Source: Styela clava
Taxonomy: Eukaryota; Chordata; Ascidiacea; Stolidobranchia; Styelidae
Direction of reading: 5' to 3'
DNA: 64,000 nucleotides
NCBI RefSeq assembly: GCF_964204865.1
Contig: NC_135250.1
Location: forward strand, 28,263,395 to 28,327,394
Shown here: piece after piece, positions 34,742 through 64,000 of the stretch
Numbering within the stretch: position 1 is the stretch's first letter
Layout of the letters: each line of letters opens with the position of its first letter
Notes under the pieces: generated by a model
Told to the model about the DNA's origin: nothing
The model's database searches: none
Seen by the model: only the letters and a program-made list of their open reading frames with translations
Position numbers and translations under genes: made by a program

Positions 34742-37700
34742 ATGGCGAAAATCTGCTTTGTAGCAGTAATTTTGCTTGCCGCGACAACATCTGTTAAGGG
34801 TAAGTACCTCTTGGCTAAATATTTACACCAATATGGTTTTGAATCAAGAATCAAAAACAATGTAATGTGTAGTAATAAAGTATCAACTGCGCATTCTTGT
34901 TGGCATTTTTGTGCCTCAATTCAAAGATATTATTGAAATAGATTATCGTGTGAAATGAGGCGAAAAATCACCGTTATGTAATAGCGTGGCTAATATTGTG
35001 ATTATTACAGTTATCAAGCAATAAAAAACCAAATATTTTCATGCTGATAGCATAAAAAAATATTTCAAAATTCAAAAATACGTTAAAAATAGGCCCTCTC
35101 ACTTTGTTATTTATTGTGCCTCTAAAAATATAAATGCATGTATTTTCTATATACAAAGCTCAAGCAACAGAAAATAATGAACAATGCACTGGTGAAAGCC
35201 ATGAAATAACTTTTGAGGTATGATCTCATTTGCAATATACTTGTTCAAACAAATGCTAAATCTACAGCTACATACATTCCAATGGCAGATAAACATATTC
35301 TTCCAAATATTAGCTCAAAGCAAGGACACGAACCACCTCAGAAGCAAAGGAGAAATGTTAGGGCGACTACTGATTTACTGCCTAGAGCTTAGATCAACCT
35401 TGTATTAAAACAATATTTATAATTTTTTCAGGCATACAACGAAGAAGGTGAGTAAACCTCTCATATTCTAAAACTAATATTCTAAAACACATGAAGGGGC
35501 ATCGAATTTTTAGGCTTGTTCTGTTAATTACTACACTGAATGTTTTTCATTTTACTCACAAAAAAAGGCTTACAAATAATGGATTAGCACTCCATTGTCA
35601 TAATACGTTGTTTGATTGTATAGTGTGTGGTATTGTATACTTGATTGTATTGTACTAACTGTATTAGCAGTTAAGGTTTGGGAATAGGGAGCCAAATCAA
35701 ATGTGGATTCAGAGTCCGCAGTCAAAACTTAGTGTGAGAGAGTCTAGAGTCGAGAGCATAGATTGAAAGTGAAATGATGAAAACTCAAAGTACGAGCCCA
35801 GAATCCAATCTTGTAGTTTGAGACCCGAGTCAAAATTTGGAGTGGAATGTCTGAAGTCGAATCCTGGATTAGGCGCCTTGAGTCGAATCTTAGATTAGGC
35901 GTCTAGAGTCGAATCTTAGATTAGGCGTCTAGAGTCGAAACCTTAAGTGAACGTCAGGAGTCGAAAAATGTTATCCGGAACCGGAAAGATTTATAATGTC
36001 CTGAAGTAAAATCATACTTTTGTCAAATATACTGCTCTTGTTGAAAAATTCAACAAAATGAATCTCGGAATAAATATGAAATTATTTTAACAGTTACAAT
36101 AGGTCAAAGTAAATTTATGGTTTTTCACAACATCTTACAATAACTAAAAATAATATGTAATTAATAGTTATTATTTATGTTATGTTCAGAATTGAGAAAA
36201 AAGCTTGAAGACATCTTTACACCAATTTTAATCAACAACCCAAATGCTGAATTGTCAATTTCTTCGGGATTTGATCGAAATGGTGCAAATAATCCCTCAG
36301 TTAGTTTTTCTACAGAAAACGAAGCAACCGATATCGCTACAACTGACCCGATAACTACCGAGAACCAGGAAAGCCCCTCTGACTTTTCGAATGCAACTAG
36401 TGCAAACACAAGTCTCGCCACCGCCACAGTCGACCCTTCAACTGTAATTGGCGAGGATACCCTATCAACAGCAGATTTACCAGGTAAGATATTCATAAAA
36501 ATAAATCGGGTTAGTCGAAACTCCATCTTTAATGACGTTAGCAAATCTAGTTACGCTTGTAACAAAACTTGTATTAAGATATATACCCCCCTTCTTTCTA
36601 TTTTACAATTTTACAAATATCATGCTCATTCAAAGAAAGCCCCGTACGCGCAACCGCAGATACATGTATATTCTTTTCCAAAAAAGACCGTAATGGCTTC
36701 GGCTCAAAATTCCTCACCCAATTTATTGTACCCCGGGTTAGGTTGGGAGGAATGCTGCAGTAAAAATTGTTCCTGAATAAATATATAAAAACAAGAACTC
36801 AAAGATACTTAAAGAGATATTATTTTTAAAGAATAGCCCCCCCCCCCCCCCTTGTCGCTTCGGTTCAAAATTTCCAGCATAATTTGTGTTACCCTGGGTT
36901 AGGTTGGGAGCTTTGTTGCAATTAAACTGTTTCCGGTTGAATATACAAATCTTTATAAATTTATGACAAGTAACGTCGCTATTTTCTACCTAAGCCTACA
37001 AATATACTGACAGAAGATACTTGCGATCACTAATGCACTACATACTATATGTACAAATTATATTTTATTTTGTGGAGTACTGAAAAGTGGGTGTTGACAC
37101 AAGACTTGGAAAAGTTTAATCTACCGTGTCTGGAAAACCAGCTAGGTCAATATAATTATACAAAACGGTTGTTGTTGTTGTTAAAAAGTTAAAAGGTACT
37201 ATAAAGAACCAAGGTACCAAATTCAGAAATAATAGGTTGTATATTTCAGTCTGGCAGGACTGACCATTTTTTTTCATATATGCCTTTTAGAAGCATGCGG
37301 TGGTGTCATATACAACCAAACCTGCTATGAAGCAATTATTCGTGACCGGAGCGTCTATTATCCAAGTGGAGCCAAATCGGCGTGCAAAGCTAAGGGATGG
37401 GAGATAGCTGATATTTATGATGCCTCACATTACGATATTATTGTGAATTACATACTGGAAGAGATTTTGGTTCCCCCTTTTTTTACAAAAATCTACCTGT
37501 GGACCGGGATGACATATAAAGTAAGCTATTTGTATTTATTTTTACTTTTGCTATACCCTCGTATTGAGTTGGGCCATGCTGCAACCAATCGCTTGGGTAA
37601 GCTATAGCCATTATTATTGGGTAATACCATAGAATAGAATACTATTCTAAAAAAACATAAAATACGTGGTAAACTGTCAACTATAAATAAATTGGAGTCG

Positions 37701-38742
37701 TATTTTGCGATTTTGGGAATTGTCAAACTTGATTTGATTTTTTGCACTCGAGATTATTTTTAAGCAAGATATCGCCGTTTGAAAAATCACAAGGTTTGGG
37801 CAAACGATTGAAATTTATTTCATTGCATGCGGCTCCGTCGGTAGTTTCAGAATGAAAAAAAAAGTACATCGCGCGCACAATTGACTGTGTTTCGATTTCG
37901 CAGTTACTACAATGAATAACCCAAGAAAACCTAACATAACACCAAATTTTGTGATAAAAGCGTTTTTAATCTGACGTGAGTCTGCTGAAACCCAACTTAT
38001 GATGTGATCTACCATTTCAAGTTATAATATTTTAGAATGCCGTTTTTCAATCAATAAATTTGAGCTGCGGATTTACAAGATTGCTGATTTAAAAGATTCG
38101 ACCCCTAATTTATCAAAATGTTTGTCAAGTGTCAAATTTACAGTTTTAGTATATATATAGTATCTTTGAAATTTAGATTTATTTATGACTTGTATTACCT
38201 CTATTAAAAAGGTTAAGCATTTAAATTAAGTAAAAAATTTTACCTTACCCCAAAATGTTAATTAATCGGAAAGTAACAATTTTAACATTTTTTGAGGCGT
38301 TCCGTGAATAATAATCAACCTTTTCAAGGGCTCCGCAACACCAAAAGTTTGAGAACCCCTGCCCTATATAACTATCAAGCTTTATATTTTATAAGAACTA
38401 TTACACTTGTTATTCAACATTATTTAATATAAATAGGGTAAGTTTTGTTACCTAGGAGACCAACATTCTTCTGCAGAAATGGAATGTGCTCTATTTACGA
38501 TCTAATCTGCATATTACTTATAGTGCTCAATTACTTATATTTAGGAAAATCAAGTCGTGCTTTCTACAGGTCGAAATATCACCCTACCGGATCGAGTATG
38601 GTGCTCGGATTGTCCTCATAAAAATGACGCTTCATTTTTTCACATACGAATTTGGGTTGATTACAGCCCGGTAATAGCATTTGGAGGTCTTCAAAACTGG
38701 CGGGATGTCCGTATTCGCGGAGTTCTTTGTCGAATACCCTGA
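34742..38742 (+). CDS. CTL-A: secreted C-type-lectin-like protein with Ser/Thr-rich stalk
   Basis: Exons 34742-34799, 35159-35217, 35432-35447 (16 nt), 36190-36483, 37291-37520 and 38545-38742 join in one frame to 284 aa. The signal peptide is MAKICFVAVILLAATTSVKG; an ATG 18 nt upstream in the same frame is less suitable. Exon 2 carries one Cys (NEQCTGE). Exon 4 begins with an amphipathic segment (ELRKKLEDIFTPILINNPN) and continues Ser/Thr-rich with NAT/NTS sequons, a mucin-like stalk. Exons 5-6 form a divergent C-type-lectin-like fold: CGGVIYNQTCY, Cys in SACKAKGW, IYDASHYD, YLWTGMTY and a final RGVLC. The usual EPN/QPD and WND calcium-binding motifs are absent, so calcium-dependent sugar binding is doubtful. 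No C-terminal membrane segment is seen. It groups with CTL-B by its exon 4. Confidence 0.85.
35700..35965. repeat. Degenerate minisatellite, about 26-bp unit
   Basis: In the intron between microexon 3 and exon 4 of CTL-A, the unit GAGTCGAATCTTAGATTAGG, then CGTCTA, is repeated nearly perfectly at about 35880-35940. More degenerate GAGTC-containing units extend upstream. It is non-coding. Confidence 0.65.
36690..36960. repeat. Tandem duplication of an intronic segment around a poly-C tract
   Basis: Two similar segments of roughly 95 bp (about 36694-36790 and 36856-36955) share GCTTCGG, TCAAAATT, GGGTTAGGTTGGGAG, GTT and CC. They are separated by a run of 14 C (about 36838-36851). Both lie in the CTL-A intron between exons 4 and 5. 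The second copy has diverged considerably. Confidence 0.5.
38215..38361. repeat. Fragment of a hAT-like repeat, related to 10060-10184
   Basis: It shares CCGTGAATAATAATCAA and CACCAAAAGTTTGAGAACCC with the fragment in the minus-strand meprin intron. Only the right terminus (GAGAACCCCTG) is identifiable. It lies in the last intron of CTL-A. Confidence 0.5.
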
Positions 38743-41700
38743 GTTACCATCTAGCTACACTTGAACTTCTCCCGAAGCCTATAAAAGAGTTGATATAAAC
38801 TAATTTCCTCATTTACCTTTTGTTATTGATTTGATATCGAAAACGTAAAAAACAAATCAATGAATGTACATGTAAGCAATCACACCTGTTTTGATTCAGC
38901 AAATAGTTAAAATCCGTGGTGGTTACCTAATAGATCACTAAACCAATTTTTTTCAATAAATTGGCTTCAATTAACTTATTTCTATCTAAACACAATAATT
39001 TTTTATTGGTTCCAATTTTAAAAAAGCAACAGCTTGATACTCTTTGTATGTATGAATTAAATTTCTGTTAATTTATTCTGTTTTTATTTATGACTTGACT
39101 TATTTTTTTGCTTGTTTAATATTCTTTACCGTCACTTCTCATATAGTGATATCTAGTGTATATCGTGTTAATTGTGCAACTCCAAGTTTGCTATTCTGCA
39201 CAATCAAATTCAAGAATATTTTCAATTTAATAGTAATAATTACCATTTTATTACCGGTTAACAAGTGAAAATATAGTAAATCTCAATGTTTATCAATCAT
39301 TCCTTAAAACCTTTGTTCAGGCTGAATAAAAAAAATATTCCATATTTTACCGGTTTTAATTTTGCAAAACCAAAGAGATTATTTCATACAATGTGAATGA
39401 GATAATTGTATTTTGGAATTTTATAATTTTATATAGTTTTTTGTTTTCCTATTATCTTTTGAGTTGCACAGACTGCAATAAACTTGTAAATATTTAAAAG
39501 GTGGGAATACTTTAAATGTTAATGTGTTTTCATAGAAAGTATTTCAAAGAAAGGTCACTGGAACGCGCATAAAAGTAAAAGAAACTCATTTTGTTCGACC
39601 CTATCAACTTGGTCTTCTTCAAGTACCAAGTCAGTTCGTATTTATTGATGTGTAATTCTGCGCTTTAATTCTTCATAGTATCAGGAGCTCATGACGCTCT
39701 GGTGGTGGTCTGTAACTTTGCACAGAGATTAGTCTCCTTTCTGAGTGATGGGCGTGAGCAAATTCTTTATATATTAATAAAGAAAATAGCGTGAAATTAA
39801 ATAATAGTAAATATTAGACATAGTTTAATAAAAAACAAATGATCTTGTTTATTAGTAATCAAACTGACAAAACAATTGATAGAACGTTAATCCATTAGAA
39901 TAGGTATCGTCATATTTTGAAACTAAGACAAAGGCGTTTGAATGCAGAAACATCAATTTCCATATTAAATAAACATCTTTTATTTTGCTCGCTTTTATAT
40001 TGATATATGTAGCAAACCAAACGCAATACTTATTTTTTAATTTTATTTATATTTAGTAATTTTATTTTTGTTTGTGCTTTTTTACCTTGAAGGCATGGCA
40101 TTATGAACGAATAAAGAAGGGCTTAATTAAAGTAGTGCTTATCTAATGTTGTCGGTTTTACTATTCCACGAGATCAGCCTACGTTATTCGAATGCTCTTT
40201 ACTTGTGCAGAATTAGAGTAAAATATAAATAGTTCATATAATAGTTCAAATTACAATACCCATGAAGTGAATTTGAAAATACTGTATATAGTATAACGAA
40301 GTCGTTCTTAGACTTTCATGATCAATCGCCTATTCACAAAGTCTTTCACAAAGACTATGACTTGTGACCTTTCGCCATTTATTAAAAATAACTAGTTTTA
40401 GTTTTAACAAGTTTTTATCAATTAAACCAAGGTGGTCCAAACAGCGGCCTGCTGACACATTCCGTGCGCCCGCAGAACAATTTTAACGTGCACTAATAAA
40501 CCATTGGCAGATATTTGTATTTATTAGCAGAACAATTTTGATTTATTTTTAAACTATTCCAACTGGTAATAGTCCTTTTCTTAATCCCGATGTCGGAACT
40601 AATGTTTGTTAAAATCACGGAATTTCATTGTTGTATCTACACACGTCAAAACGGTGGGTATATGGGGATGATGTCCTGTGATTGGTAAAAGGAGAATGAA
40701 TTGTTTTGTGCAGACAGGACCAAGCCGATGAGATGAGCTCGCGTCAAGTACCTCCTCATTTGAAGAGACGTTTTGTGCCTTTATTTTAGTCAGAAAACTC
40801 CTATATTTTCAAGCATTTGCCATGTGACAGCAATGACGAACCGCAGGGCTGACTTAGCGCAGTGCGATCCAGTTTTTATTTATATCTGGGTCCGAGGTCG
40901 ACGGACTTGGTTGTTTTTTGACGTAGGCCTGCTGCTCACGCTACAAGTAATAAATTCATCATACAATGAGTGTATGAAAAAAGTGATTAAAGTGAACGTA
41001 TTTTCTTACCCACAACAACGTTACACCACAGTGTCTGGTGTGTTTCCAAGTAATATCTGTCACGGAAGAATATAATTTTGAGCGACATCACCAAACCAAA
41101 CACGAGAAAAGATCCCCAAAAAACCATGTTTTTTTTTCAGGAAGCAATTCTAAAATAACGAAAGGCTTTATATATTTACCTTGAAAAACTGATTAGAACA
41201 ACAAACTTAAATGTTTTTAAATGTTTTGATCACTTTTGGGTTTTTCCGACTGAGGCCCGCGAGACCGCCTCAAAAGTTTTTGCGGCCCTTCAACCTCGCA
41301 ACCTTGGACCACCCTGTGTTGAACTATATTCGTTTTAATAATGTAACGATATAAAACTGAAGAAATTAAATACATTACAATTAAAAACTAAACTTTTCAC
41401 AGTTAAATTATTTTAAATCAATATTGTCATCGCTTATGAAAAACTTTTGCCCGCGTCCCCCGGAGAATGCTCCATGGCACAATGGGAGGCAATGAGCCTA
41501 GTTTGGGAAACTCTGGTTTATGCAAGCTGAATGTTGGAATTAACGATTAAAATGTTAAATGAGTTCATCACGCTTCAATTGCGTTAATATTAGAAATAAC
41601 TAAGATTGAAAACATATTTGAATGCAGTACTGCATTTGGTATAATGTAACAAAGATAAGACCTTAATTTAATAATACAAAATTTTGTAATATTTATAAAA

Positions 41701-43848: not shown

Positions 43849-46734
43849 ATGAGATTGATCTTTCCTATTTGGCTTGCACTACTAGCACTAGTCATTGGTA
43901 AGTGAATATGTTTACTTGCTTATAATATGTAGAAGCATGTAGGATTGTTATCAAGACTTTCGAAACAAAAATGCTCATTTTATATTGCGGGTTAGTCATT
44001 TTATTCCTAATATCGATATTTTCTCGCACATCTTGCTTAAAAACAACTTTCTTAACAAATTGGAGTTAATGTTAGATAAATATTTTAAAAATAATCTAAT
44101 TTATGAACAACAAGGATTATAAAACAAATTTTTCTCATATGGCGTTGAAAATATCAATTTTGTTAATTAAACACGAAGTGGAATTAATGTTTTCGTTATT
44201 ACTTGAAATTTCGATTTGTTGAAAATTGTTGTTGTCGATAGAAGACTATTATTTATTAAAAAAAATTCTGTGGGCTTCATGGAATTCCTCTTGCTCTGAA
44301 TATTTGTGTGATTATGTCATCAAGATCTATAATTGTCCGACTGTGTGACTGATTCGCAATTGCATTTTAGCAATTTGGAGGTCAACGGAGTGGAGAGTTG
44401 TTTGATAAAAAAAGAATAAGGGTATCGGTGCTGTAGAAGATTTTGTGATAATTCTTTGATTTGGTCTTAGCGTTCATATATTTGAGCATTAATCTCTTGT
44501 TTTCTTAATTAAGAATGCACGACGGTGGAAATATATTGATATTACATCATGTCAATCTTACATATATTTTTTTATAATTATAGCTGAACCTACTCCAGAT
44601 GAAGAAAAATGCGATATAGAAACAACTCATGAAAAAATTATTGAGGCAAGTCGAATATATATTACATCAAGTTGAAACCATAGGCTAACATCACAGATAT
44701 AAACAAATTTTTTTCTGGTTTACTTTGCATGATCAAATTTGGTAAAAATAAATCTAAATCTGAAAATATCCTAAAACAATAAAACTATTATCTATATTTC
44801 TGAGATTTTATTTATAAGCAAGCATTTGTAATGTTTTTCTCAAATATTATGATTTGTGCAATCAATTTTATGGTAAATTTCTTAAATTTCAAGTTAATCT
44901 TAACTTAAAGATTTATTTTGTCTTTTCAGGGCTTCGGTGGAGAAGGTAAATGCACTTTAAAGTTATAAAAGTTTAGAGTATCTGAAATAGCTCAAACCAC
45001 TGAATACCTTATAAAATTCAAAAATTATTAAATAATTTATACAATATAGATAGTAACAGTGAGGATGCAATAGGCCATGGGGACAGAAAGAGTACATCTT
45101 CTACGTTGTCGTATCACGTATTGGAATATTTATTTATCTATTTATCTTACCCAGGGTTGTATGGATTGATTGAAAAGATCATAGATGCACATATTTTTTT
45201 GTAAACCTTAATGGCAACCTGTAAACCTGAATAAGATGCATTGGCTGGCTGCACATCCGCTTTAACTCAAATTTGCAACTATCGTTTAGTGGGAATTGCT
45301 TTGAATCAAGTAAACGCGCATTCAATATGAGGTAAAGAGGACATGAGTTAGACAATAATAAAAACAAATCAACGATTATTTTGCTAATGCGCGACAATGT
45401 ATATTTTTCAAATATGGAATATTATAGTTCAAAATTCATTTAATAAAACTTTCAGCATAGTTATACTGTAAATGTAAGTCTTCTTTTTTTGTTCACTTTA
45501 AGAACTTCGAAATAAGTTGGAAGAAATCTTGACTCCAATTTTGATGAACAATCCGAATGCTGAATTGAAAATTTCGACTTTTATCGACGACGAATACATC
45601 ACCCAGCCAACTGAGATTTTTCCTATTCGGTCAAGTAAAACCGTCCCTAGCAAGACATTGAGTGAATCTACAACAAAGCATCCTACCACACCACCTGAAA
45701 TCACAGATAGAACTACTGACCCAACAGGAGAGACAATGAATCCTACTTCACCTGGTAAACAAATAACTAAATCACAACTAAATTGGGTAGCTAATGATGA
45801 ATCGGATAGATTTTTGTAATAGTAGCTACAGAACTAAAAGTGGGTTCACGTACAGAGCCCTATAAAAGTTCTAAATACCTTAAATTACATACTTAATGAA
45901 ACGCAGGTTACGTTTGATAATAATGTTATTATGATTACCTAGCTAAAATAATTTAACAATATAAATGATGACAATATTGATCTTTTCGACTTTTTTTAGA
46001 TAACTGCAATTTGATCTATGAGAATAGCTGCCTCCATGTAATTGTTGTTAATAATGAAATAAATTTCGACATGGCCACGCAGCAATGCACAGCCAATGGT
46101 ATGAAATTGGGGAATATCTACGATACTGCTCACTTCAACTCGGTTGTAAACTACTTTCGTACGAACTTCTTGACTGGCATTACATATAATTACATTGACA
46201 TTTGGACTGGAATGACTATCAATAATGCAAGTATTTTATTGGGTATTCAAAAAAAGTTGCAAGGAATAATAAAAATAAATTATAGTTACAAACAAGCGCG
46301 GATAGCTAAAAATCAAAGTAATCCACAAATTTTAGGTAAAAGCCGGTAGATACCATAATTTACACGTCAATTTAATTATTTCGGGAAAAAATGGCTGGGG
46401 AAAGGGTGTGAGTAAAACAAATCAGCTAAGCTGTACTAATTAAGTTTAAATAAATAAAAATTTCAATTTCGTAGCTAAAATATCGGAAATAAATTTATTC
46501 GTCTAATTGATCATTATTTTATTGAAGGTTAGCGGAAGAAAAATTATTCTCACAACCGGAAAAGAAATTGGACTTCCACATTGGCTTGAAAATCCGTCCG
46601 CGGCTTCGACATACAAAAATATAGCACTCCGAATTAATAAAAATGCTGGATCTACAAATAGTGGCATTTTCAACAAACCTCCAAGTGGATTACTAAGCGG
46701 GGCGCTTTGTGAAAAGCCGAAAGATCTTTTTTGA
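43849..46734 (+). CDS. CTL-B: secreted C-type-lectin-like protein with Ser/Thr-rich stalk
   Basis: Exons 43849-43897, 44584-44645, 44930-44945 (16 nt), 45503-45754, 46000-46226 and 46528-46734 join to 270 aa. The signal peptide is MRLIFPIWLALLALVI. Exon 2 has one Cys (EEKCDIE). Exon 4 starts ELRNKLEEILTPILMNNPN, very close to CTL-A, then turns Thr/Pro-rich (TTKHPTTPPEITDRTTDPT). The lectin-like exons contain CNLIYENSCL, TAQQC-type spacing (TQQCTANG), NIYDTAHFN, IDIWTGM and GALCEKP near the C-terminus. No EPN or WND calcium motif and no TM segment are present. Two introns use GC donors: GAG|GCAAGT after 44645 and AAT|GCAAGT after 46226. These follow the usual GC-AG consensus, and the frame is preserved only with them. 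AATAAA occurs at 46827 and 46904. Confidence 0.84.
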
Positions 46735-48599
46735 AAAACCTTGCTCGTGTTTAAACATCAATGCTGCTTACAGAAAAATAGATGTCAATAGATCTATGTC
46801 TAGATTTCTATCGAATATTTTTTAAAAATAAATTTTAATTTTTCTCGCTCATTTTTTCTGAAAACTATATAATTTATTTGTTCATTCTTAAGTTGCTATC
46901 TATAATAAAGATAATAGTTTTTATGTTAGTTCGTTAAATTCTATTTTAACACTATATTTATTTCCTGGGTCAACGACACACAACTGACTGTTGAATAATA
47001 ATCAGCAAAACATTTTAATGTGAACGATATAAAGCAATCATACTTTATAATTTTTTGAAGTTTCGATTCCGGGCCCTATCTATGTGATATGGGGAAGTAA
47101 ATATCTTCTTCCTAAGACCCGTTAATCTCGAAGAGATATCGATATTGATTCATTTCTATTTTATACGCGACATACACACGCTTTCCGCTATGTAAAAGTC
47201 CCTGTGCAAAAAGCTACATATATCTCAAAATAAATGTTGTTTGGAAAGACCAGAATGTTTCAGGATACAAGACTTCCTACTTTCCTTTTATATGTTGGTG
47301 TAAATTGATCTACATTTCGATTTTTTTTATATTTTGATTAGTATGTTATTGTTAGACGGTTTTTATTTATGTCAAGAGGTGTTACATGCTTGAAAGAGCA
47401 CCATGGTTTACAATCGGGCCGTTGTTGAAATTGGTTGACTGGTTGAAATCCACCGCGCTATTTTTTGGATGCATACCATACCTGTGAAAGAAATCTTTTT
47501 ATCTTATACTTCAAAATGTTTTGTTTGAATTTTCTAATGAATTAATAAAACTGAACAAAAACTGTATTAAAGCAGTCTGTTTTTCCAAATCATGCCGGAT
47601 AGGCCTAAAGAAATTTAAAAAAAGGGAAAAAAGTCAAAATCATGTTTTCTTTCATTTTCAAATTTGTATGCGACCAATTAAACATCAAAAATAATAGAGA
47701 AATGCTTTACGCTAGGTTTGAATCACCCTGTGAGCACTTTTTCGTGTGATACATTTTCACTCAGAACAAGGCTATTTACAATCATCCAATTATATGTTAA
47801 TTGTTACCAATTCATTAGTTAATTTTTACCTTGCTCAACGCAAGGCCAAGCGCAGTCACCTAGAATGATATAAGCCACATTTAACACAAGTTGGAGCGTA
47901 ATTAAGCCAAACAAACATTTGAAGCGTGGTTGAATTGGAATTATGACATATATTAGTGGTAAAAATTTGCAATTGGTGTCAAATCATTTTAAAAATTTAT
48001 AGTTTTTCAATCTGCTTTTCCACGGTATTTTGAGGATAATAATTTTCACTTTTTGCCTAAAAATCATCAATGGATTTGTGTACTAGAGCTAGTTGCGTAA
48101 AGGCAATATAGCATTATGAAAAGGATCGTCAGATGACCCGTTTTGCCTACGGACGTTATCGCTCATTAAAATGCACCACACAAGGAAGTCACTGACAATA
48201 TTACTCATATGATCATGTATAGACCATGCTTACTCGTGTATAATAAAAGTAGTGTCTGAGCCCGTATCTCATCTGCGTTCAAGTAAGATTGATATGTGTT
48301 ATTCACCGAATGAATAAGACATCTTAAATCGAGCATAGTCAAGATGAAACGCTGTTTTTATTATGATTTAAATAATTACAAATTTTATTCTGCCCACGCA
48401 TGAGTGATAGAATTATAATAAACATTATAGTTGCGTTGTTATGCTGCCGTGAAAAGGTTTCAATATATGAAAATTTGTGACGTAATATGACTCTTTTAAA
48501 CGTGTGGAAACTTTTAATAAATTATTTGTTCTGTGGGCTTGATAGCTTATATAGGTAGATGTAATTGTGAAGTGGCATACAAAAAAGTCTAATAGAAAA
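46735..48599. other. Spacer between CTL-B and CTL-C
   Basis: It contains the CTL-B 3' UTR with poly(A) signals, AT-rich sequence and the left arm (48010-48147) of an inverted repeat whose other arm lies beyond CTL-C exon 1. I see no other exon. Confidence 0.5.
48010..48147. repeat. Left arm of a 138-bp inverted repeat flanking CTL-C exon 1
   Basis: This arm is the reverse complement, with few mismatches, of 48758-48895. The best core includes ATCAATGGATTTGTGTACTA, then GAGCTAGTTGCGTAAAGGCA. The arms are about 610 bp apart and enclose CTL-C exon 1 (48600-48651). Confidence 0.8.
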
Positions 48600-51500
48600 A
48601 TGGCAAGTGTTTATTTTATCTTTTTGTTTTTGTTAGCTGGATCGACTTCAGGTAAGTTCCGCACCTCTGTTTTGGTGTAATTCCACTTTTTCGAATTTAA
48701 TAAAAAACTCATCAGTGACTTCCTTATGTGATGCATTTTAATGAGCTTCTGGTCTGTGGTCAAAACGGTTAATCTGACGATAATTTTCATAATGCTTTAT
48801 TGCCTTTACGCAACTAGCTCTAGTACACAAATCCATTGATGCTATTAGACAAGAGGTGACAATTTTTGTTCCTAAAATACCGAAGAAAAGCAGATGGTAA
48901 CCCGTTTCAAATACTTTACAAATCATATTCAAAAATGTGTTATGAATAGTGTAATGTGTAGTTACATTCCTTCAAATTATAAAACCGTGATTTTTCTTTA
49001 AAAATATTAATAAAATGATTGAAATAGTTTCCTTAATTCAAATCATTGTCTAGCCTTGTTGAAAAAGTTTTGCAAAACGACATCGATCAAATAAATAAGT
49101 ACAAAGGGGATTTCATGTATAAAGTTGGAATATATATGTATCACGACAATCTTCTTACACTTTTTTTTAGTCGCAACCAGCTTAGTTGAAACATGTGATG
49201 GACAAATTACAAATGTTGATATTTCAGTAAGTATTAGTAAATAAAGTTCATTGTTTGCGTATAGAAATGATTGTTATGTAAGGTCCCTATACTAATAATC
49301 AAACGTAAAAATGATTCAGATTATGAGGAGCCGCATAGTAAACAATTATAATATGATTCATTTAATTTGTCATGATAAGCTTGTCGAGACTATTTTCTGA
49401 GAAAACTGTTACCATTTATTCTCGGTACGTTTACTTAAATATATTTGTGTCAACATAAACATATTGCACGCCATTTTGCTACTGAAGGCTACTTAAGCGC
49501 TCATCGCCTTGCTTCTGTTAAATTTGTATGAATATAATTTCAAAAATCTAATTTCTTTGTTTTAGTTTGAAAGCGAAGAAGGTAAGCTCAACCTATTTTT
49601 ATTGCTTAAATATTCTGGTATATATATAAAGTAGTGGGATTTAGAGGGCTTGCACAGTTCGCGCAAACCCAGTCTTGGAATGTCGTGATAATCAAGGAAC
49701 CCGTCCTTGATTTTTTTGTTTTGTACGTTTGATTACTGCACAATATTGGACAAACTTCATATTTGGCGTTTCTATAGTTTGCTATTAGATCCAGGTAAAG
49801 AGTGTCGTGATAATGCATCTTACACAGTGGCATACATATATTCTGAAATGAGGGAATCTGTTGTTGATGAGTTCGATACAATAGAGAACTAGTTCCAAAA
49901 TTTAAATCCCACCACACATTAAACACACATTAATCGTATTCTGTGGATAGTTGGCCTATGTTCACAATTTATCTCTCAGTTCTGGGTAATTCTGGGTTCG
50001 CTCGTGACTTAGTTTTCAGTGCACTGCTGAGTCTTTTAGCAATTTTACAGCTCCATTATAAGTCGGACTTCAATTGTTCCCTGTATTACGTCAAACATTG
50101 TTTTTCGGTATCTATGCTAAGGACGTATCTCTGTATACTTAGTATTTCCTGGTGTTTCAGGGCAGGCTTGTGACTTTACTTTGAAGCTTTCTTCTATTGA
50201 GTAATGAGCATATACGTAAATTTACCTCGAAATTCGCAGACTTAATAAGTGAACGCATGCCCATGACAAATTTTCATAAAAAGTTTACATAGATATTTTT
50301 CTGTACTCCTGAAGTATGCGCACCAAGATGTCGCATAACTGAACCCTAACCTGGTACACAACCTGAATTCAGGTTGTGCGCCATCTTGGTGCGCATACTT
50401 CAGGAGTTCCTATTTTTCATTGTCTTTATTTTTTTAATTTTATTTTTTCAGATTTAAGAAATCAACTGACAGAGCACTTCATTTCACTTCTGACTAGGAA
50501 TCCAAGATTATTACATAGTGAAGTAACAATTCAGACAGAACTGGCACACATTCTAGGAAATACTGAATCCAAAACAGAAAGTCCACATAACTCTACAACT
50601 GGTAATTTGACAACGACACCAAAACACGTCGGATCCACTGGAAAAGTAGAGACTGCAGATTCCTCTAAAATCTTACCGACCTCTGACAAACTTACAGTTT
50701 CACCTTTATTCTCTGCTGTAGATGATACAGAAACCAAATTTGTGACCTCTGGCGTAACTTCCAACTTCGAAACATCGACGTACTTCACCACCACAAGTGT
50801 AGCTTTGACTACTTTGTCAGGTATTTTAAGCACTTAACTATCATGAGAGGTTACGTAATTTAACTTCTTATTTCTTTTCCTTTCTTTTCACTGGTGGATT
50901 CGTATGCATGCAATGCAATAGTGCTGTAGCAAGAATATTGGCGCATACTGATCGAATTATTTTTGTGTATTTCTGCGTAACTTCAATGAAAATGTAGTAA
51001 ATGAAAACAATCCAATGAATATTCCGATCCTTCCAAAATGAGTAATTTCTAATATCAGTTGATACTTTTATACAACATTATTTTAATCAAAATTCGTTAA
51101 TGACTGTCACATGACAAAATATATGAAGTAACTAACAGATAAGTCAGTCTTTAACAATAGTTTTGTTTACCAAATAAATGTTGTATTCTGCTAGCGTTTT
51201 TATTTCAACCATTGTGCTGATGATCTCGTATACCGTAATTTAATAATTCTGTAGCAAGAAAAGTTTATATATTAAAAGTTAAAGATTATAATATTCTAGG
51301 ACAACATATCTAATCTGTGGCGTTTGGAATTTGAAATCGAGATGTGAGACCTGCGTTCGCAAGACAGTTAAATCTAACTCTTTCACCACGAAGCTATCGC
51401 GACCACAACTTTTCTAATATTTGGATCATTAAATCTAAATATTCACCAATAGCTTATGAGGTATATTAATGAATACTATAAATATGTAACTATGAAATTA

Positions 51501-52685
51501 ACAGAATGCGATTTCACTTTCGATGGAAAATGCTTCAAGATAGTCAACCCGGAACCGAATTATAAATCAAACTTTGACAAAGCGAAAAGTTTATGTAAAT
51601 CATGTTCCATGTCCATGGGAAATATCTACAGCCTTGAACATTACAACAAAATTCAGAAATACATAAGAGATTATATTTTGAACTCCGGATCAATCGGAAA
51701 CCTATTTCTGTGGACGGGAATGCGATACAGGGTTAGTAGTTACAATTCAGTATTTTTTCCAAAATGCATAGAGATATAATTTACAGGTATATGTTCGATG
51801 ATCTGTAATGTGAAGTATTGTATTGCGTTAATTTTGACATCGAAATTCAATTTGAAAGAGGCCTTTCCTATGAGGTATTCATAATGTTTGGAGGTGGAAA
51901 TATTGACTGGAATATAATAACAAAACAGCTGTTTTGGCGAATAAATTCTTTACGTAAGAGAATTTAATTGTGAGACACGTGTAGACAAAAGTGTATTATA
52001 ATCTAACAAGTATAAAATTCTCGGTCATTGAGCCTGTATTTTAATTATAACAAATGGCAGATTGTATTTTTTGAGATGCAATTCAATGAGGAAATAAATC
52101 TATATTCTATTCGTGAGATGTATCACTGTTGATTTTCATTATAGAAGGTATCATCTGTTCGGTTTTCAAGTTTCTAAAAATTTGTGCGGCCCGGCAATGA
52201 CTTGCATCCTTTAATTTTGGCCCGCGAACGACAAAAGGTTGCCGACACCTGGTCTAATGGTTCCACTATACATACGATTAGTTAGAATATATGTTTGTCA
52301 TCTGCGTTCAACAAATGATATTTGTCAACAGTCAATTTGCTGCTTGCTCTGATCCCTATTCTGTGCGTAGATGTGTGTGCAAGTGCATTGTCCCATAACC
52401 AGAAAGTAGTCTGAAAAACTGAGCTATAAATGCGATTCATATTAATATTTGTTCATTTCAATATCTCAGAACAAAGAAATACTTCAGACATCTGGGACAA
52501 AAAGCAAATTGTCAAATTGGCATATAAACTGGCCCAATACAGAAAAACATTACGAAAATATTGTGATCTGTGTGGACAGGAATGCAAATGAGGAAAAACA
52601 AGGGATTTTGAACTACTTGCCGACTAAAACTTCTGTTAATGGAGCACTATGCGAACGGTCCATGGTCGGAGATGATGTCGAATGA
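48600..52685 (+). CDS. CTL-C: secreted C-type-lectin-like protein with long Ser/Thr-rich stalk
   Basis: Exons 48600-48651, 49171-49226, 49566-49581 (16 nt), 50452-50820, 51505-51731 and 52470-52685 join to 311 aa. The signal peptide is MASVYFIFLFLLAGSTSG. Exon 2 has one Cys (VETCDGQ). Exon 4 begins DLRNQLTEHFISLLTRNP and SEVTIQTEL, the form shared with CTL-D and CTL-E, then a long Ser/Thr-rich stalk with NST and NLT sequons. The lectin-like part has CDFTFDGKCF, SLCKSCSMSMGNIYSLEHY, LFLWTGMRY and GALCERS. An extra Cys in KSCS is unlike the other paralogues. The C-terminus runs a few acidic residues past the final Cys. No TM segment and no canonical calcium motif. The exon 5 acceptor (TTAACAG) lacks a strong pyrimidine tract, but the phase and the paralogues support it. 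Confidence 0.84.
48758..48895. repeat. Right arm of the inverted repeat flanking CTL-C exon 1
   Basis: Partner of 48010-48147, located in the first intron of CTL-C. Core on this strand: TGCCTTTACGCAACTAGCTC, then TAGTACACAAATCCATTGAT. Confidence 0.8.
50304..50407. mobile_element. Palindromic MITE (copy 2 of 3) just upstream of CTL-C exon 4
   Basis: ACTCCTGAAGTATGCGCACC at the left is the exact reverse complement of GGTGCGCATACTTCAGGAGT at the right, a 20-bp perfect terminal repeat. The inner part matches 33579-33684. It ends only 44 bp before the exon 4 start at 50452, close to where the branch site and pyrimidine tract should be. Confidence 0.82.
51915..52251. mobile_element. Truncated hAT-like MITE, inverse copy of 8749-9185
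   Basis: Read on the minus strand from 52251 it begins CAGGTGTCGGCAACC, then follows the 8749-9185 element closely (GGCCAAAATTAAAGGATGCA, then CATTGCCGGGCCGCAC, then GAAAACCGAACAGATGAT). The far end lacks the terminal repeat, so the copy is truncated. It lies in the CTL-C intron between exons 5 and 6. Confidence 0.7.
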
Positions 52686-54758: not shown

Positions 54759-57700
54759 ATGGAAACAACCTTCTTTCTTTTTGTATTATTTCTATTCAAT
54801 TGGAAATGTTTGGGTGAGTTACAAGATGAAATTAGCATATTTGTATGACAATTATTTGGGTCGGTGTTGAAGCGTGAAAGCGACGTCATATAACGAAGTA
54901 CACGCAATCGTTTTTGCAATCGTTGAGTAATTGAATCAAAATCTATATTATATTTTATGAAATTAGGTAATAGATCTTTTTTTCGCATTAGGATAATTGC
55001 GCTATACGTTATTATATTATATTATACGTTATTGTCTGGTGGTTAACGAGTCTGCTGCAGATTGTATATTAAATAGTTCATACAAATGACATCTTATATG
55101 GGGAAGATATGAACTTAAAGATATCATATTGAATTTTCAAGTAGCTAGTACAATCTATAGGTGATAAAATTGTTGACGTTTTAGAGTGTACTCATAAAAT
55201 TACTTTTTGTTGACAAATTATTACTATAGTTACAGCCGCAACCAATTCAGATGAGTCATGCGATGGGCATAGTGCAGCGTTTGAAATTGTGGTAAATACT
55301 TATATTTAATTTGCTAAACTAAAACAAACTAACTTCAAATATTAAAAATTGGAAACACAGAAAACTACAAAAAATGAATTAAAAACTCTAGAACATAGAT
55401 GTCCAACCTGCGGCCCGCGGGAGCAAAGTTGTTGAAAGCATTTAAAGAGAGTTTCGATTAATTGCAAAATTCGACGGTCTCTTTAAAATTTTGTATGCCT
55501 CCCGTTGACATTCGGGTAGAAGAGGCCCCAGAATATACGCAAAGAAGATAGAAAACTTATACTCTACAGTGAGTGTATCAATAATAATGAGACAAATGGT
55601 AATGCGTATTGCAGCGGCAATGGAAACAACGTATATGTGCAAATCTTTCTTTTCGAAATTGAAAGTTATGAAATCGGAGCATAGGAGTAAGCTGTCGAAC
55701 GACAACTTGACAAGCTAGTTAGTTACGTTGTGAGGTACCAAAGCCCAAAGCTAGCCGTTAATATTGGACAGTTGAGCAATAACATTCAAAAGCAAGTTTT
55801 GCACTAGTTGAAAAAAAAAAGAATTGCTGACTTCGTGTTGTCCGGGTGCAAGTTGTGAAAGGGTGAAATCCGCAAAAGAATCCAGGCGTTTGATTTAGCG
55901 ACGCTCAAATTCTAACGTAAATCGGCACTGGGCTGGTATTCTAGTTGGGTAAAAACGTTTGTGCTCCTGAAGTATCCGTATAAAGATGGCGCACAACCTG
56001 AACATAGTATGTGTACCAGGTTATAGTTCAGGTTGTGCGTCATCTTCGTATAAAAATACTTCCGGAGCGCCAAAACGTTTGCGGCCCGCAATGAATTTCT
56101 TCATGTGAAAGTGGCCCGCGACACTAACAAGGTTGGACATGCCTGCTCTAGACAATTAAAATTACTTGAATATTACAATATATAAATATTTACAGCTGCT
56201 CTATCCGAACATAACTTCGTACTGGCAAATTGGCTAATGTAATATGTTTTAGGTACTTCAACGATTTATCATCATTAAATATTTAAAAACTTTTATTTTC
56301 AGTCTGAAAGTGAACATGGTGAGATTTGACTCTATGATAAATGCTCAATAAACCGCTCAAAGATAAATAAAACAGTGAAAAATTTTGATATTTAGCTCGG
56401 TATGGTACTTTCCTATTTTTTTTTCATTACAATTCACACACACTTCAACATAAAGTATTTAAAACTAACATTTATTTATTTGGAGGATTGTAAATTGAGT
56501 CAATGAGAGATATGTATAAAGTGATCACCAAATCAGGAGTTGTAAGCTGTTAATACAATGTGATCTTGAATTTAATTTGTTGTCTGTCACCTTAGCTTTA
56601 TCTCTGCTAAAATAAATATGAAGAAGTTCTAATTCTATTTCTTATTCTCGCACTTACTTCTTTGAAAATTTAAAAATCTAAATCACTATTACTGTGTTTT
56701 CAGATTTGAAAAGGCAACTGGAGGAAAAGTTCACGTCACTTTTGAGGAAGTATCCAAACTTGTTTCAAAGTGAAGTCAACATTCAAGCAACATTAAGAAA
56801 CCCACATGCGACAAAGACATCTTTCACAACATTACCAAATTTTTCAACAAATGCTTCATTCAATGCGACAAACAAACGACCCTGCCAATCTACCGCAAAT
56901 ACTCACTCTATTAAACCTTTAACTGAAGCCTACAACAAAACAACCTCCAGTGTTACGACTTTCCCTATAACAACTAGAAACTTTATCTCCACTGCTGCAT
57001 CAACTATGGAAACACTAACTGATTCAACCGAAACCACAGTTATTCTCACAACTTTACCAGGTTAGCTATTCTATGCATTGTGTTTGTTATGTAACTCACC
57101 TTTGCAGGCTGAAGTTGTATGTAATATGCACCATGCCTTTGCTCTATATGAGATTTGTGTTTACAGAAACTAATGCGATTTAAAAAAAAAACTTCTTCTT
57201 TCGTTTGGCAGACAGTATTAAATTGTATTTCCTCATATTTGATTTAAGATATATGTGGAGCCATATACAACAACACTTGCTACATTGCGATCCTTAGGCT
57301 TGGAGACTTCCAAAAGGCTGTGGAGTTATGCCAAGCTGAAAATTGGACTATGGCAAACATCTACAGTGCTGATCACTATGACATGATTGTCAACTACATA
57401 CGACAAACAATTTTGCCTTTTTGGAATATGGAGTATATTTACTTGTGGACAGGAATGGAATATAAAGTAAGTGAACTTTTTTTACTTTGTGATAGAATTT
57501 ACTCGATATAAAAACAGGAGGAGAAAATCCGTTTTGGGTATTTGTATTGACTAAATATTGAATCAAAAATGTTAATTTATGCAATGGGAAATTATATTCT
57601 ATTTGAAACTTGTTAAATGCGATAAACTAAAAATAAGCTAGTCAAGGTGTACTAATTTAAAGCCTAATAACTTTGTTCCATTACGACTATTCGTATCATG

Positions 57701-58210: not shown

Positions 58211-58406
58211 AAGGTTTATTCTACATTCCACAAACTGCTAAGAGCTCATGTGTTAACACAACAATCCGTTTTGATATACTGTCTATGCATATTTAATGCT
58301 GCATTTTAACTCAAATGTATTTCTGTGAGATTGTCAGACTTCTTCAGACAATTAGACTTCAAAAATGACAAGAAATTCACAATCCTGTAGTTTAAATGTA
58401 GAGATA

Positions 58407-58412
58407 AATAAA
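58407..58412 (+). terminator. Polyadenylation signal of CTL-D
   Basis: AATAAA lies 196 nt after the stop codon at 58208-58210. Confidence 0.5.
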
Positions 58413-59409
58413 CTTGAAATTAAAATCTTAAAGAGATTGTATACAATTTGGATATAATATTGTTAACAACCACATGATAAAGACAAACCTCTAAATCTTT
58501 AAAGGCATTCATATTTAATTTTTTAGTATGCATATCTTATATTATTCGGTACTTTTAGTTTAGTTTCTGTTGGTGGAATCGTCTAAAAATGATTGTACTT
58601 ATGTCGACGAGCATACGTAGTGAGATTTGAGGATTCCAGTTATGAATCCAAAGTATTATTCAAATGCAATAAATATATTTTTTGAATTTATAAAATTTCT
58701 AATGTTAATTTTTACTTTTTATGGTTGCTTCAGATAAACTTTTAATTTAAATGATGTATGTGAACTTGCATGAAATCGAACACTCTTAAATTATTAATTT
58801 TTGTTAAAAAGTCGGAGCGCAAATAAATTTCATCGAAACGTTCTGTACTTGGAATTGTAACTTATATAAACTTAAGATATGGTTGTAATGATTTTACAGA
58901 AATAATAAACGTAAAAATATTAACAAATGTTAATGAAAAACGACTAATTACTGAGAGAATAATTTTACGGTAATTTGGAGCTTTTAGGGCTTAACAAACT
59001 TAATCTTAGCAACCAATCAGAAAACACATTTGTCTCAAATAAAACTATTAATACTATGAATTCTGACTGTGCCCATGCTCATTATATGTTTTGATCTAGA
59101 AATCAAATGACCCACATAGCTCTGAACACCGACAAAAAATTCGAAAATTCCAACTACTGAATGCTGAATTTTATAACGAATTATTTGTAATAATAAAAAA
59201 GTATTGCTTCAAAAAGTATTGCTAAAAACATTTTAAAAGTTAATGGTATTTTTTACTGCTATTAGTTTCACTCTTTTCTTCTTTTGTTTTTAATTGCACT
59301 TTCTACCATTTTGTTCAAATAGCTTTTCAGTTATTTCCTATACGTATTCTATGTATGTAAAGCAAAACTTAAATGAAGACTCGTTTCAATTTTGAAATTC
59401 AACCTGTCA

Positions 59410-60195
59410 TTATGTGGCGTTTGGTGAATTTATGTTTGAGTTTTCTATTTGTAGCTAATGAGGTTTAGGTAATTTGGACATTGCCTCCATCATACTTGTA
59501 CAGAATTGTGTTGAGTGCATCATTTAAATTTGGTCATTAAAAATATTAGGTTATTGATTTAATGGGGAACTTAACTATACCAATGTTACTGCTTAGGCAA
59601 ATAGTTCCTCCACATTGTATACATTTTAAAAGATGTAATAAACGGAGGGAAAAATAAAGTGCAATATTAAAAATTAAATATTCGAGGAAAATTAAGTTTA
59701 CTGTAATTACTGTAATAAAGAAAATAACCTTGTAATGACTGCTCATTGAATATTTCGATTTTGATATTCAACTAATGGTAACAGGACCCGAATCAAAGTT
59801 CTGATAAATATAGTAATACAATTACTCTGGATATTGTTAACCAAACTGGTAACATTTAAAGCATTCCTATATTTAAAATAAATGTTTTTAGTGTCAAATG
59901 TCAACCGGTTGACTTCGGAAACATTAAACGTTGTGCACCACTTGAGGAAATTACTATTGATGCACTGATTGCATACAAATTTTCTTGATCAGGTTAGGCC
60001 ATGCATTTACTAATAAAAGTTCACTATATTTATCTTAAAATTATCCCCGGCTTTAATGTGACAAATGAAACCACTCACATAGGCATTTAGTTCGAAGAAT
60101 CCTTTGACTCATCTTGTCGCCTAATAGTTCTGATAGGTATGATAAAAAGTCATTTGTGCATTGGTTTCTACTTTGTCAGTACATCCTGGGACATC
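59410..60195 (+). repeat. Orphan copy of the CTL upstream region
   Basis: Shared landmarks with CTL-D and CTL-E upstream DNA include GCTAATGAGGTTTAGGTAA, GAGTGCATCATTTAAATTTG, GTGTCAAATGTCAACC, CACATAGGCATTTAGTTCG, TAATAGTTCTGATAGGTA and CATTTGTGCATTG, then TTCTACTTTGTCAGTACA. Where CTL-D and CTL-E have their signal exon shortly after, this copy runs into unrelated sequence. Confidence 0.7.
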
Positions 60196-60859
60196 ACGCA
60201 GCGAACGAGAAGTGTATAGCGTTTTTTACATTTGTTTTGTGACAAATTGATCGTACCTATAAGATTGTAGGATTAACAAACAGACTCACACTTCAAGCAA
60301 GTATTCAAAAACAACTTTGTTTCAAATAAATATACCAACATCATCAACTCTGTTTGTGCACGTGGTTTTTATGTTCCTTTGAGATTATACTGTTTTGACT
60401 TAGAAATTGAATGGCTGTCATGTCTTTGAACACTGAAATAAAAGTCAAAAATTCAAATTATTGACTGCTAAATTTTACAACAAATTATTCGTAATAATGA
60501 AAAATTATTGCTTATTTTTTTCACAAGGTAATAATATTTTTACTGCTATCATTTTTACTCTTTTCATCTTTTGTTTAGAATTGCACTTTCTACACTTCTG
60601 TTTACATGTCTATTCAAATATTTCCTTTGTTCTATATTTGAAAAACAAATATATTCCTAAATCAAGACTCGTTTGACTTTTAGAATTCAACATTGGTGTA
60701 ACAGTTGTGGTGACATTTTAATAGGTCCTGGAGTACGGTTTTTTTTATGTTTAGGGTGCTAGCATATATTGATCTGTGTTGAGAGAATAATAAAATACAC
60801 AGTTTTTTGCATGAGTCTACCTGAGTCTCGTCTCAGCATGCAACAAAAGGTATAAGAAG

Positions 60860-61700
60860 TTATAATGTAGCGTTTGGTAATTTTGAGTTTTCTATTTGTA
60901 AGCTAATGAGGTTTAGGTAAACTGGACATTGCTTCTATCATACTTGTACAAAAATCTGTTGAGTGCATCATTTAAATTTGGTCATGAAAATTATTAGGTT
61001 ATTAATTTCATGAGAAAAAAAACTCGAAGCGGATGGAAACAAAGCCCGATTCAATGGTTTTTGTAGCGGTATAGTTTTATCCAGCTATTACATAATTACA
61101 CGTAAATGCAACATTTCATTTGCATATTATTCATCCATAATCCAATCCATTCTTCTTCTAATCGTTACAGACAATCGGAGGAAAAAGTTTGCAAAAACAG
61201 GATAATTAGCCACCGATTACATTCACGATTTTATCGATATTCATTTCATTGAAAATGTAAAGTAATAGATGTAATTAATTAATTTTGCATAAATGTAGTA
61301 TTATATACATAAGATATATTTAACCTGGCAGATAACAGTGACGCATTCATATATTCAAAATAAAATCTTTTAGTGTAAAATGTCAACCTATTAACATTAG
61401 TTAAATTTTGGGCACCACATAATGAAACTACCATTGATTCATTGCTTGTATACGCATTCCATAGGTCAAATTAGGCCATATATGTACTATTAAAAGTCAC
61501 AATATTCGTAGTAATATTATCCCTGGCTTTAATGCGGTGCAAATGATAACACACACATAGGCATTTAGTTCGATGAAAACTCTGACGTATCCAGTCGCTT
61601 AATGGGCATTTGTGCATTGGGTTCTACTTATTCAGTACAGCATTAGGGCATCACGCTACAAACGACATATTTAGGCCGTATTTTTAAGCCAGGAATAGTA
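60860..61700 (+). repeat. CTL-E upstream region, duplicate of 53690-54755
   Basis: Long near-identical stretches are shared with the CTL-D upstream region, for example ACCTGGCAGATAACAGTGAC, then GCATTCATATATTCAAAATA, and CCTATTAACATTAGTTAAAT, then TTTGGGCACCACATAATGAA. The duplication includes the promoter side and the first exon, so CTL-D and CTL-E are a recent tandem pair. Confidence 0.75.
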
Positions 61701-61703
61701 GAA

Positions 61704-64000
61704 ATGGGTACAACCTTCACCATTTTTGTACTGTTTCTATTTCATTGGACATATTTGGGTGAGTTACAAAATTATAATTTGAACCGCTAATGAAATTAGC
61801 ATATTTGCATGAAAATTATCTTTCAAGTTTTAAAATGTAGGCAAGATCCAATTGAATGCCAATTTTGAGTTGATCAAAATTCCGGATATTAATATAAATC
61901 CAATGTCTGTTAGTTATGTTATTATTGGTTCCTCTTGTTATCGTGGCAATTTGAATGGCGAACAGCTAAAAGGAAGGTGTTTATAAACAAAATAGCCATG
62001 TTCATATTAGAAGCTGTTTATCGAAAACTTTGTGCGGAGTTGAGGCGTGGAAAACATCATGTAACCGAATACAAATAATCGTTTTTAGGATTGAGTAATT
62101 TAATTAAAACATATATTTTATTTTATAACATTTTAGGTATTAATTTTTGTTGGCACCATCGTCTTAAGGTTAATGTGCTGCAGATTTTATATTAAATATA
62201 TTTTTTGTTTAAATGAAATTAAATCGTATGTGGCGAAAGAATGCACTTAAAGATATAATATTGAATTTCTAGTTGCTACTACAATCAATACGTAATAAAA
62301 TTGTTTACGTTATATAGTGTACTTATAAAACTACTTTTCGTTGACAAATTATTACTGTATTCACAGCCGCAAACCAGTTGGATGAGTCATGTGACGGGCA
62401 AAGTGCAGAGTTCGAAATTGTGGTGAATACTTATATTTAATTTATTTAACATCAAAATTGGAGCAATAAACTAAAACAAACTAAGTTCAAATATAGAAGA
62501 GTGAAATAAAATTCGTTACACACAGAAAACTATAAAAAATGAATTAAAACCTCTAGAGTCTAGACAAATAAAATTGCTTGGTTATTACAATATATAAGAA
62601 TTTAGAGCTGGTCTCTCCGAACATAACTTCCTTCAGGCGATTTGGCTAATGTTCTATGTTTTAGGTACTTCAAAGATTCATCAACATTAAATATTAAAAA
62701 CCTTTTATTTTCAGTTTAAAAGCGAACATGGTGAGATATTCTATTATAACTAATGTTTTCTGCTCAAAGATATATAAAACATTAAAAAAACTGTGATAAT
62801 CATCTCGGTATGGTACTTTTCTGATTTTATTTTTTATTTCAGTCCACCCATAAACAACCACAACATAATTTATTTTAAAACTAACATTTATACAATTGGA
62901 GAATTTAAAATTGAGACAATGAAAGATATGTATAAAGTGTTTGATAAGTGTAAGGAACACACTTGTTGTAGCACCGCTGGTTAACATATGTAGCGGGATT
63001 TAATGGTGTTTGTGTGTTTGATAATTGTTAAAATATGTCTTCCTTATATCTACGTACATATTATAATACAGTGAATGATAAACATAACTATCCAGGCCTG
63101 AGCATTTAAATCTTAGTAACTATTCCCTTACAAAATCAGGAGTTGTAATCTGTGGATATTATGCGATAATGAATTTAATTTGTTGTCTGTCATTTTAGCT
63201 TAACCTCTGCTAAAATAAATTTGAAGAATTTCCAATTGTATTTCTTATTATCGCACGTTTTCTTTAGAAATTTAAAATTTGAACATATAAATTAGAATAT
63301 TTGTGTTTTCAGATTTGAGAAGGCAACTGGAAAAAAATCCACGTCACTTTTGGCGAAGCATCCGGACTTGTTAAAAAGTGAAGTCAACATACAAGCAACA
63401 TTAAAAAAAAAACATGCGACAAAGAAATCTGTCAAAACATTTCCAAAATTTTCAACAAACACTATATTCGAAGCGACAACCAAGCGCCCCCGTCAATCCA
63501 CTACAAATACTCACCTTACTAAACCTCCAACTAAAACCTACAACAAAACAACCACTCATCCATTCAAAGCGACTTACAACAAATCAACCTCCGCTCCATT
63601 CAAAGTGACCTACAACAAAACAACCTCTGCTCCATTAGAAGCGAACTACAATAAAACAACCACTGCTTCATTCAAAGCGACTTACAACAAAACAACCTCT
63701 GCTCCATTCAAAGCGACCTACAACAAAACAACCTCTGCTCCATTCAAAGCGACTTACAACAAATCAACCTCCGCTCCATTCAAAGCGACTTACAACAAAA
63801 CAACCTCTGCTCCATTAGAAGCGAACTACAATAAAACAACCACTGCTTCATTCAAAGCGACTTACAACAAAACAACCTCTGCCCCATTCAAAGCGACCTA
63901 CAACAAAACAACCTCTGCTCCATTCAAAGCGACTTACAACAAATCAACCTCCGCTCCATTCAAAGCGACTTACAACAAAACAACCTCTGCTCCATTAGAA
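61704..64000 (+). CDS. CTL-E: partial CTL-D-like gene with frameshift and expanded coding repeat
   Basis: Exons 61704-61758 (signal MGTTFTIFVLFLFHWTYLG), 62367-62422 (DESCDGQSAEFEIV), 62715-62730 (16 nt) and exon 4 from 63313 correspond one-to-one to CTL-D. Exon 4 begins DLRRQLEK but has one base fewer than CTL-D in a run of seven A (63331-63337), which shifts the frame and puts a TAA at about 63371. In the other frame homology to CTL-D resumes at once (LLKSEVNIQATL) and stays open to the window end through the 36-bp repeat. The lectin exons would lie beyond 64000. Either the copy is a recent pseudogene, the deletion is an assembly error in a homopolymer, or splicing restores the frame. The long open repeat argues against an old pseudogene. 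Confidence 0.7.
63539..64000 (+). repeat. 36-bp coding tandem repeat with 180-bp higher-order period
   Basis: The unit TACAACAAAACAACCTCTGC, then TCCATTCAAAGCGACT, is 36 bp and encodes 12 residues of the form YNKTTSAPFKAT. Twelve complete units and part of a thirteenth fit before the window ends. Variants (SAPLEAN, TASFKAT, NKSTSAPF) recur in the same order every five units: 63601-63780 and 63781-63960 are nearly identical, a 180-bp higher-order repeat. Each unit has an NKT/NKS N-glycosylation sequon and several Thr/Ser. Confidence 0.92.

Follow-up and report, generated by a model that had tools for sequence, protein, structure and literature searches.

What kind of protein is encoded by the row of related genes that begins at position 34742 of this 64,000-nucleotide stretch of the Styela clava genome (the window, C1:28263395-28327394 of a 376.6-Mb genome), and what might such proteins recognize? 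The first-pass annotation had described at least five lectin-like genes with mucin-like stalks; six are found, A to F, one of which (E) is broken in the present assembly, and the six-gene array is real and mostly intact. In the reading proposed here, to which a probability of roughly 0.6 is given, the sequences of A-F point to a tunicate gene array coding for secreted lectin-like proteins, which as stalked oligomers would recognize varied ligands; their function would be secreted recognition, probably of an immune kind.

The genes, the C-terminal domain and the stem

Genes A-D are all complete and lie head to tail on the forward strand at 34742-58210 (Table 1). As the first-pass annotation had stated, they follow one six-exon plan with start phases (0,1,0,1,1,0) common to all four, the third exon being 16 nt long in each. 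Of E, exons 1-4 fall inside the window. The introns of A-D are of the GT-AG type apart from introns 2 (44645) and 5 (46226) of B, which begin with GC, as does intron 5 of E (L009, about 5080). The exons 5 of A-D match one another well beyond chance (E between 3e-7 and 1e-17 in tblastn), and all four genes retain WTGM and the final G.LC, again as described earlier.

The identity of the C-terminal part is carried by sequence profiles. In PDB a profile of the four A-D domains has its best matches, at E 2e-7 to 4e-5, among C-type lectin proteins, namely LY75 (2.3e-7, summed over several C-type lectin-like domains, CTLDs, of which the best single one reaches 15 bits), mosGCTL-1 (2.1e-5) and the IgY receptor (4.2e-5, positions 6-141 of 142), followed by PLA2R (1.1e-3, positions 7-141 of 142), with unrelated proteins appearing among the matches above E 0.1. 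With a profile of 34 exon-5 sequences, all 12 PDB chains at E<=0.01 are CTLD-type proteins, although several multi-domain chains have no stretch that would reach this threshold by itself; the matches include snaclecs, CD69 and type II antifreeze protein, all of which have the C-type-lectin fold. The two profiles together bear out the lectin-like character claimed at first sight. A-D also keep conserved positions of the CTLD, i.e. the Cys of the second helix region, a W and the final G.LC. The Pfam Lectin_C model scores D (16.3 bits, E 0.017) and C (12.4 bits, E 0.28) below its gathering score of 22.6 bits, has no match in A or B, and is matched at E<=0.1 by 5 of the 34 exon-5 sequences, while a search of NCBIfam gave only matches taken as chance. 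EPN, QPD and WND are absent from all 34 exon-6 sequences, several of them partial (QPS occurs in 4, EPS in 1 and WID in 1, at other places), and because of this absence ordinary Ca2+-dependent sugar binding by the CTLD of the A-F family appears unlikely.

Each protein starts with a hydrophobic segment, followed by an N-terminal Cys, a helix-like module of ~45 residues, a serine/threonine-rich (S/T-rich) stalk and the CTLD. The helix motifs were found as quoted earlier: the segment ELR.KLE.I.TPIL.NNPNAEL is common to A and B (71% identity across the initial 28 residues of exon 4), another form is common to C, D and F (54-82% over the same residues), and the form of E lies in another frame than its exon 4. 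This module gave no significant match in Pfam, and its matches in PDB did not improve on E 0.2. The stalks of A, B, C, D and F measure 53-92 residues with 42-55% P+S+T, and E alone has a long tandem repeat in this place. Beyond residue 25 of A-D, the Kyte-Doolittle mean of every 19-residue stretch is at most 1.3, so that there is no clear membrane segment past the signal.

From these parts a mechanism may be proposed, in which the N-terminal Cys and the helix would make oligomers and the stalk, probably glycosylated and standing in place of collagen, would keep the CTLDs apart. Such oligomers with spaced CTLDs could bind many weak ligands at once; collectins work by multivalent binding of this kind. 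The CTLD face would bind varied ligands on microbes or other cells, the protein opsonizing or agglutinating such targets in mucus or blood, and new genes would arise when members duplicate in tandem and when stem and CTLD exons are swapped through intron 4.

Past the window, 55 kb of further sequence (up to C1:28381999; L009 and L010 are stretches there) contain exons 5 and 6 of E (L009 4867-5079 and about 5617-5811) and, downstream of E, the sixth gene F, after which the last 41 kb hold no array match at E<=0.01; the copies were thus counted beyond position 64000, as had been proposed. Exon 4 of E is frame-shifted relative to D near the A-run at 63331-63337, and its 4.6-kb stalk array, with 119 matches to three forms of the first nine bases of the unit, contains three 35-bp spacings that shift the frame further, which may reflect a real pseudogene or an assembly error. 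The CTLD of E is 75% identical to that of D. Behind a second copy of the promoter region shared by D, E and F, at L009 7046-7398, no gene was found either.

Table 1. Positions of the array genes and associated features in the window
Feature	Positions	Strand	Exons and remarks
Gene A, 284 aa	34742..38742	+	34742-34799, 35159-35217, 35432-35447, 36190-36483, 37291-37520, 38545-38742
Gene B, 270 aa	43849..46734	+	43849-43897, 44584-44645, 44930-44945, 45503-45754, 46000-46226, 46528-46734; introns 2 and 5 with GC donors
Gene C, 311 aa	48600..52685	+	48600-48651, 49171-49226, 49566-49581, 50452-50820, 51505-51731, 52470-52685
Gene D, 299 aa	54759..58210	+	54759-54813, 55236-55291, 56303-56318, 56704-57060, 57249-57466, 58013-58210
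Gene E, cut by window end	61704..64000	+	exons 1-4: 61704-61758, 62367-62422, 62715-62730, 63313-; exon 4 frame broken
36-bp tandem repeat coding the E stalk	63539..64000, continuing into L009	+	unit of 12 residues, e.g. TYNKTTSAPFKA
D/E promoter-region copy	59804..60208		not followed by any exon match; probably left over from a lost copy

Three copies of a MITE-like (miniature inverted-repeat transposable element-like) hairpin, 75-94% alike, were also seen in the window (33576-33681, 50301-50405 and 55964-56075), two of which sit in introns of C and D, and an inverted repeat (84%) flanks exon 1 of C (48010-48195 and 48712-48895). Upstream of the array lies what is probably a pair of meprin-like genes in inverted orientation, of the astacin-MAM type and with membrane tails (5819-6235 and 14587-14778 on the reverse strand, 25349-25567 and 31926-32285 on the forward strand), which is indicated by two HExxHxxGxxHE zinc motifs and one MAM match at 0.0021, under the Pfam cut-off.

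Relatives across the genome and the exchange of stems

When exon 5 of C was searched against the genome, the best 150 of 443 candidates were scored and all 150 match; with Lectin_C, 149 of the best 150 of 697 candidates match. In a comparison by eye the places found with the two do not coincide, and Pfam mostly misses this CTLD. Pfam-visible Lectin_C exons were seen near members of the array's CTLD family at C8:4.02-4.11 Mb and C13:16.62-16.94 Mb. Forty distinct genes, A-F and 34 others, were examined, taken from the best matches and from clusters rather than as a random sample. The module upstream of the CTLD is collagen in 12 of them, S/T-rich in 7 (B-F, C10:9296581 and C8:4038967) and neither in 21, the last class including A, with a stalk below the cut-off, and two genes with less than 1 kb of upstream sequence; a short neck helix was matched in 17 of these 21. 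In the C8 gene of the S/T-rich class the stretch is preceded by a module weakly like that of A (39%, E 0.1). Thus a collagen Gly-X-Y region stands upstream of the CTLD in 12 of the 34 other genes and in none of A-F, which look like collectin-like lectins whose collagen has been replaced by a helix plus a stalk.

The D-type helix occurs at five places in the genome, in C-F and once on C18, where the copy is dead, with stops in exon 4 and no exon 5 found. Such a dead copy, the promoter copies lacking genes and near-identical duplicates agree with the birth-and-death family that had been suspected from the window. The sixth gene adds a further feature, as F consists of D-like exons 1-4 joined to an unrelated CTLD: its identity to D is 82% over the first 28 residues of exon 4, 35% in exon 5 and 30% in exon 6, and the D-like DNA stops at L010 3386, about 95 bases into intron 4. 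Since the dead C18 copy likewise combines D/F-like 5' parts with an F-like exon 6 and 3' flank, the join in F is no assembly slip, and the swap of stem and CTLD in F appears well supported by these comparisons. In tests on CTLD trees a clade of D, E and F is rejected (p 0.030), and in the CTLD data A falls together with D and E (support of 91/91 when analysed alone and of 96/83 in a tree of 34 rows), by which an older swap between the A/B and C/D types is only suggested. Of the two clean subfamilies described earlier, the division therefore stands for the N-terminal module only, the CTLDs grouping differently, and a split of whole genes into two subfamilies was set aside.

The lack of collagen in A-F also bears on an alternative reading, considered unlikely, according to which these proteins would be complement-initiating lectins similar to Halocynthia GBL, the N-terminal half of which is reportedly helical; the helical stem would then bind MASP-like proteases and the CTLD would target them to microbes. 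In the accessible part of PMC514892, GBL of Halocynthia roretzi is described as free of a collagen domain and placed among the complement-activating lectins, and an H. roretzi C-type lectin is also reported to interact with MASP. Against this, A-F, being without collagen, are without a MASP-binding motif. Even the collagen relatives fit imperfectly: a sequence near the motif, P-G-K-x-G-P, is present in 11 of 12 and missing in one, and the x position is occupied by Arg or Lys in 10 of them and by Ser in one, where the motif as given in the accessible text of the paper has an aliphatic residue.

Outside this family, the genome searches returned a glycosyltransferase-2 domain (PF13632, C9:16177301, 2.8e-14) located 2.1 kb before a GH6 domain (PF01341, C9:16179895, 1.5e-6) on the same strand. 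As a fusion of cellulose synthase with GH6 is characteristic of tunicates, this pair marks the host as a tunicate. PMC8704543, in its accessible part, mentions the cellulose synthase that tunicates gained by transfer.

Selection on the stem and on the C-terminal domain

The first-pass annotation had assumed diversifying pressure on the array, and here the answer is divided between the array and its relatives. Within the array, where most other pairs are too diverged for an estimate of the synonymous rate (dS), the ratio of nonsynonymous to synonymous rates (omega, dN/dS) for D-E is 0.30 in exon 5, 0.69 in exon 6 and 0.46 over the CTLD, and for D-F 0.16 in the helix and 0.59 in the stalk. These values indicate constraint, and D-F, the sole pair tested for it, gave no sign of positive selection in the stalk. 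Among close pairs of the 40 genes, which are not independent of each other, the median omega is 0.44 for exon 5 and 0.94 for exon 6, and with dS>=0.05 (a filter applied to 138 exon-5 and 72 exon-6 pairs) omega exceeds 1 in 0 of 133 and 26 of 67 pairs, respectively.

A similar difference is seen in 15 neck-type genes (one of which, C18:515747, has a stop in exon 5 that was masked), when coding change is set against the divergence of intron 5 in 102 of 105 pairs. In exon 6, dN exceeds the intron divergence in 43 and dS in 62 of the 102, while the figures for exon 5 are 19 and 1. It has to be noted that the median exon-6 dN (0.254) is smaller than the median intron divergence (0.286), which weighs against a simple reading of the excess, found as it is in the closer pairs. 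Comparison of the site models M1a and M2a (own code, 14 distinct neck-type sequences) gave twice the log-likelihood difference (2dlnL) as 55.5 for exon 6, with 30% of codons at omega 4.2 and 10 of 62 sites at P>0.95, and as 42.8 (40.5 in another run) for exon 5, with 9% of codons at omega 5.1 and 6 of 72 sites at P>0.95. In 15 neutral simulations each, 2dlnL reached at most 3.5 (exon 6) and 11.1 (exon 5); the models were run without recombination, which could inflate the test. Taken over the whole exon, omega is 0.64 for exon 5 and 1.17 for exon 6, the latter value being indistinguishable from 1 (p 0.37). The selected exon-6 sites follow the W..P..P stretch and surround GM.N..PS.S.HG, which by inference would put them where EPN and WND normally stand, close to the usual sugar site. 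Strong diversifying selection is thus supported in the neck-type relatives, mainly at exon-6 sites and not in the stalk, whereas it is not seen in the array where this can be measured.

These results also inform two readings that seem very improbable. In the first, A-F would be allorecognition or gamete-recognition proteins, for which tandem divergent genes and the long repeat stalk of E might be expected and with which the diversifying selection in the relatives is equally compatible; yet nothing links the locus to gametes or fusion, and a family spread over many contigs and including collectin forms fits defence better. The second, that the genes encode structural components of mucus or tunic whose divergence is mostly relaxed constraint, is highly doubtful: the D-F stalk and D-E exon 6, which are nearer neutral, and the broken E speak for it, but the low values for the helix and exon 5 signify constraint and the relatives have site classes with omega well above 1.

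The array among known systems

Several points weigh against secreted, stalked and oligomeric recognition proteins as the reading of A-F. The structure prediction proposed as a check was limited to exon 5, for which AlphaFold returned the order strand-strand-helix-helix, as in a CTLD, but with a predicted local distance difference test score (pLDDT) of 51, too poor to confirm the fold. The stalks are termed mucin-like by their composition alone. The CTLDs of A-F are very diverged and yield no site-selection test from the array itself, and the measurable pairs have omega below 1. Groupings of A+B (p 0.060) and of C+D+E+F (p 0.061) are not rejected by the CTLD data, for which the tree program warns of long branches meeting.

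Beyond the array, it may tentatively be suggested, at less than even odds, that this tunicate has well over a hundred secreted lectins as a recognition repertoire. In these, recombination within a phase-1 intron common to the genes would join a hypervariable CTLD exon, strongly selected for diversity around the former sugar site, to one of several interchangeable stems (collagen, neck or glycosylated stalk). If true, this CTLD family, which is large and mostly missed by Pfam and has interchangeable stems and sites under diversifying selection, would be a concrete candidate for recognizing many targets with germ-line genes. The stalk repeat of E and the chimera F illustrate two ways in which new members arise.

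Among known systems, the mannose-receptor family (LY75, PLA2R) provides some of the best CTLD sequence matches to the A-F family, and many of its CTLDs are also without sugar binding; its members are large membrane receptors with many CTLDs, whereas A-F are small, with one CTLD and no clear membrane segment. The CD93/thrombomodulin group likewise combines a CTLD with an S/T-rich, mucin-like stalk, but there the CTLD is N-terminal and the protein membrane-bound, while in A-F it is C-terminal. Collectins and MBL share with A-F the order of signal, Cys, stem and C-terminal CTLD, and relatives with the same CTLD family carry collagen; A-F differ from them by the lack of collagen and of EPN/QPD and WND. 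Nine collectins/MBL are reported for Ciona in the accessible part of PMC514892. Literature searches listed, among their matches, no paper title on a stalked tunicate CTLD array or on this CTLD family. The earlier remark that no family of exactly this architecture was known can be narrowed, in that the closest printed case, on what is accessible of PMC514892, is GBL, which by its description is a tunicate C-type lectin lacking collagen like A-F, and which differs in being sugar-binding by name, with no S/T stalk mentioned in that part of the text. The array is a new variant of tunicate CTLD proteins, and the larger interest lies in the family surrounding it.

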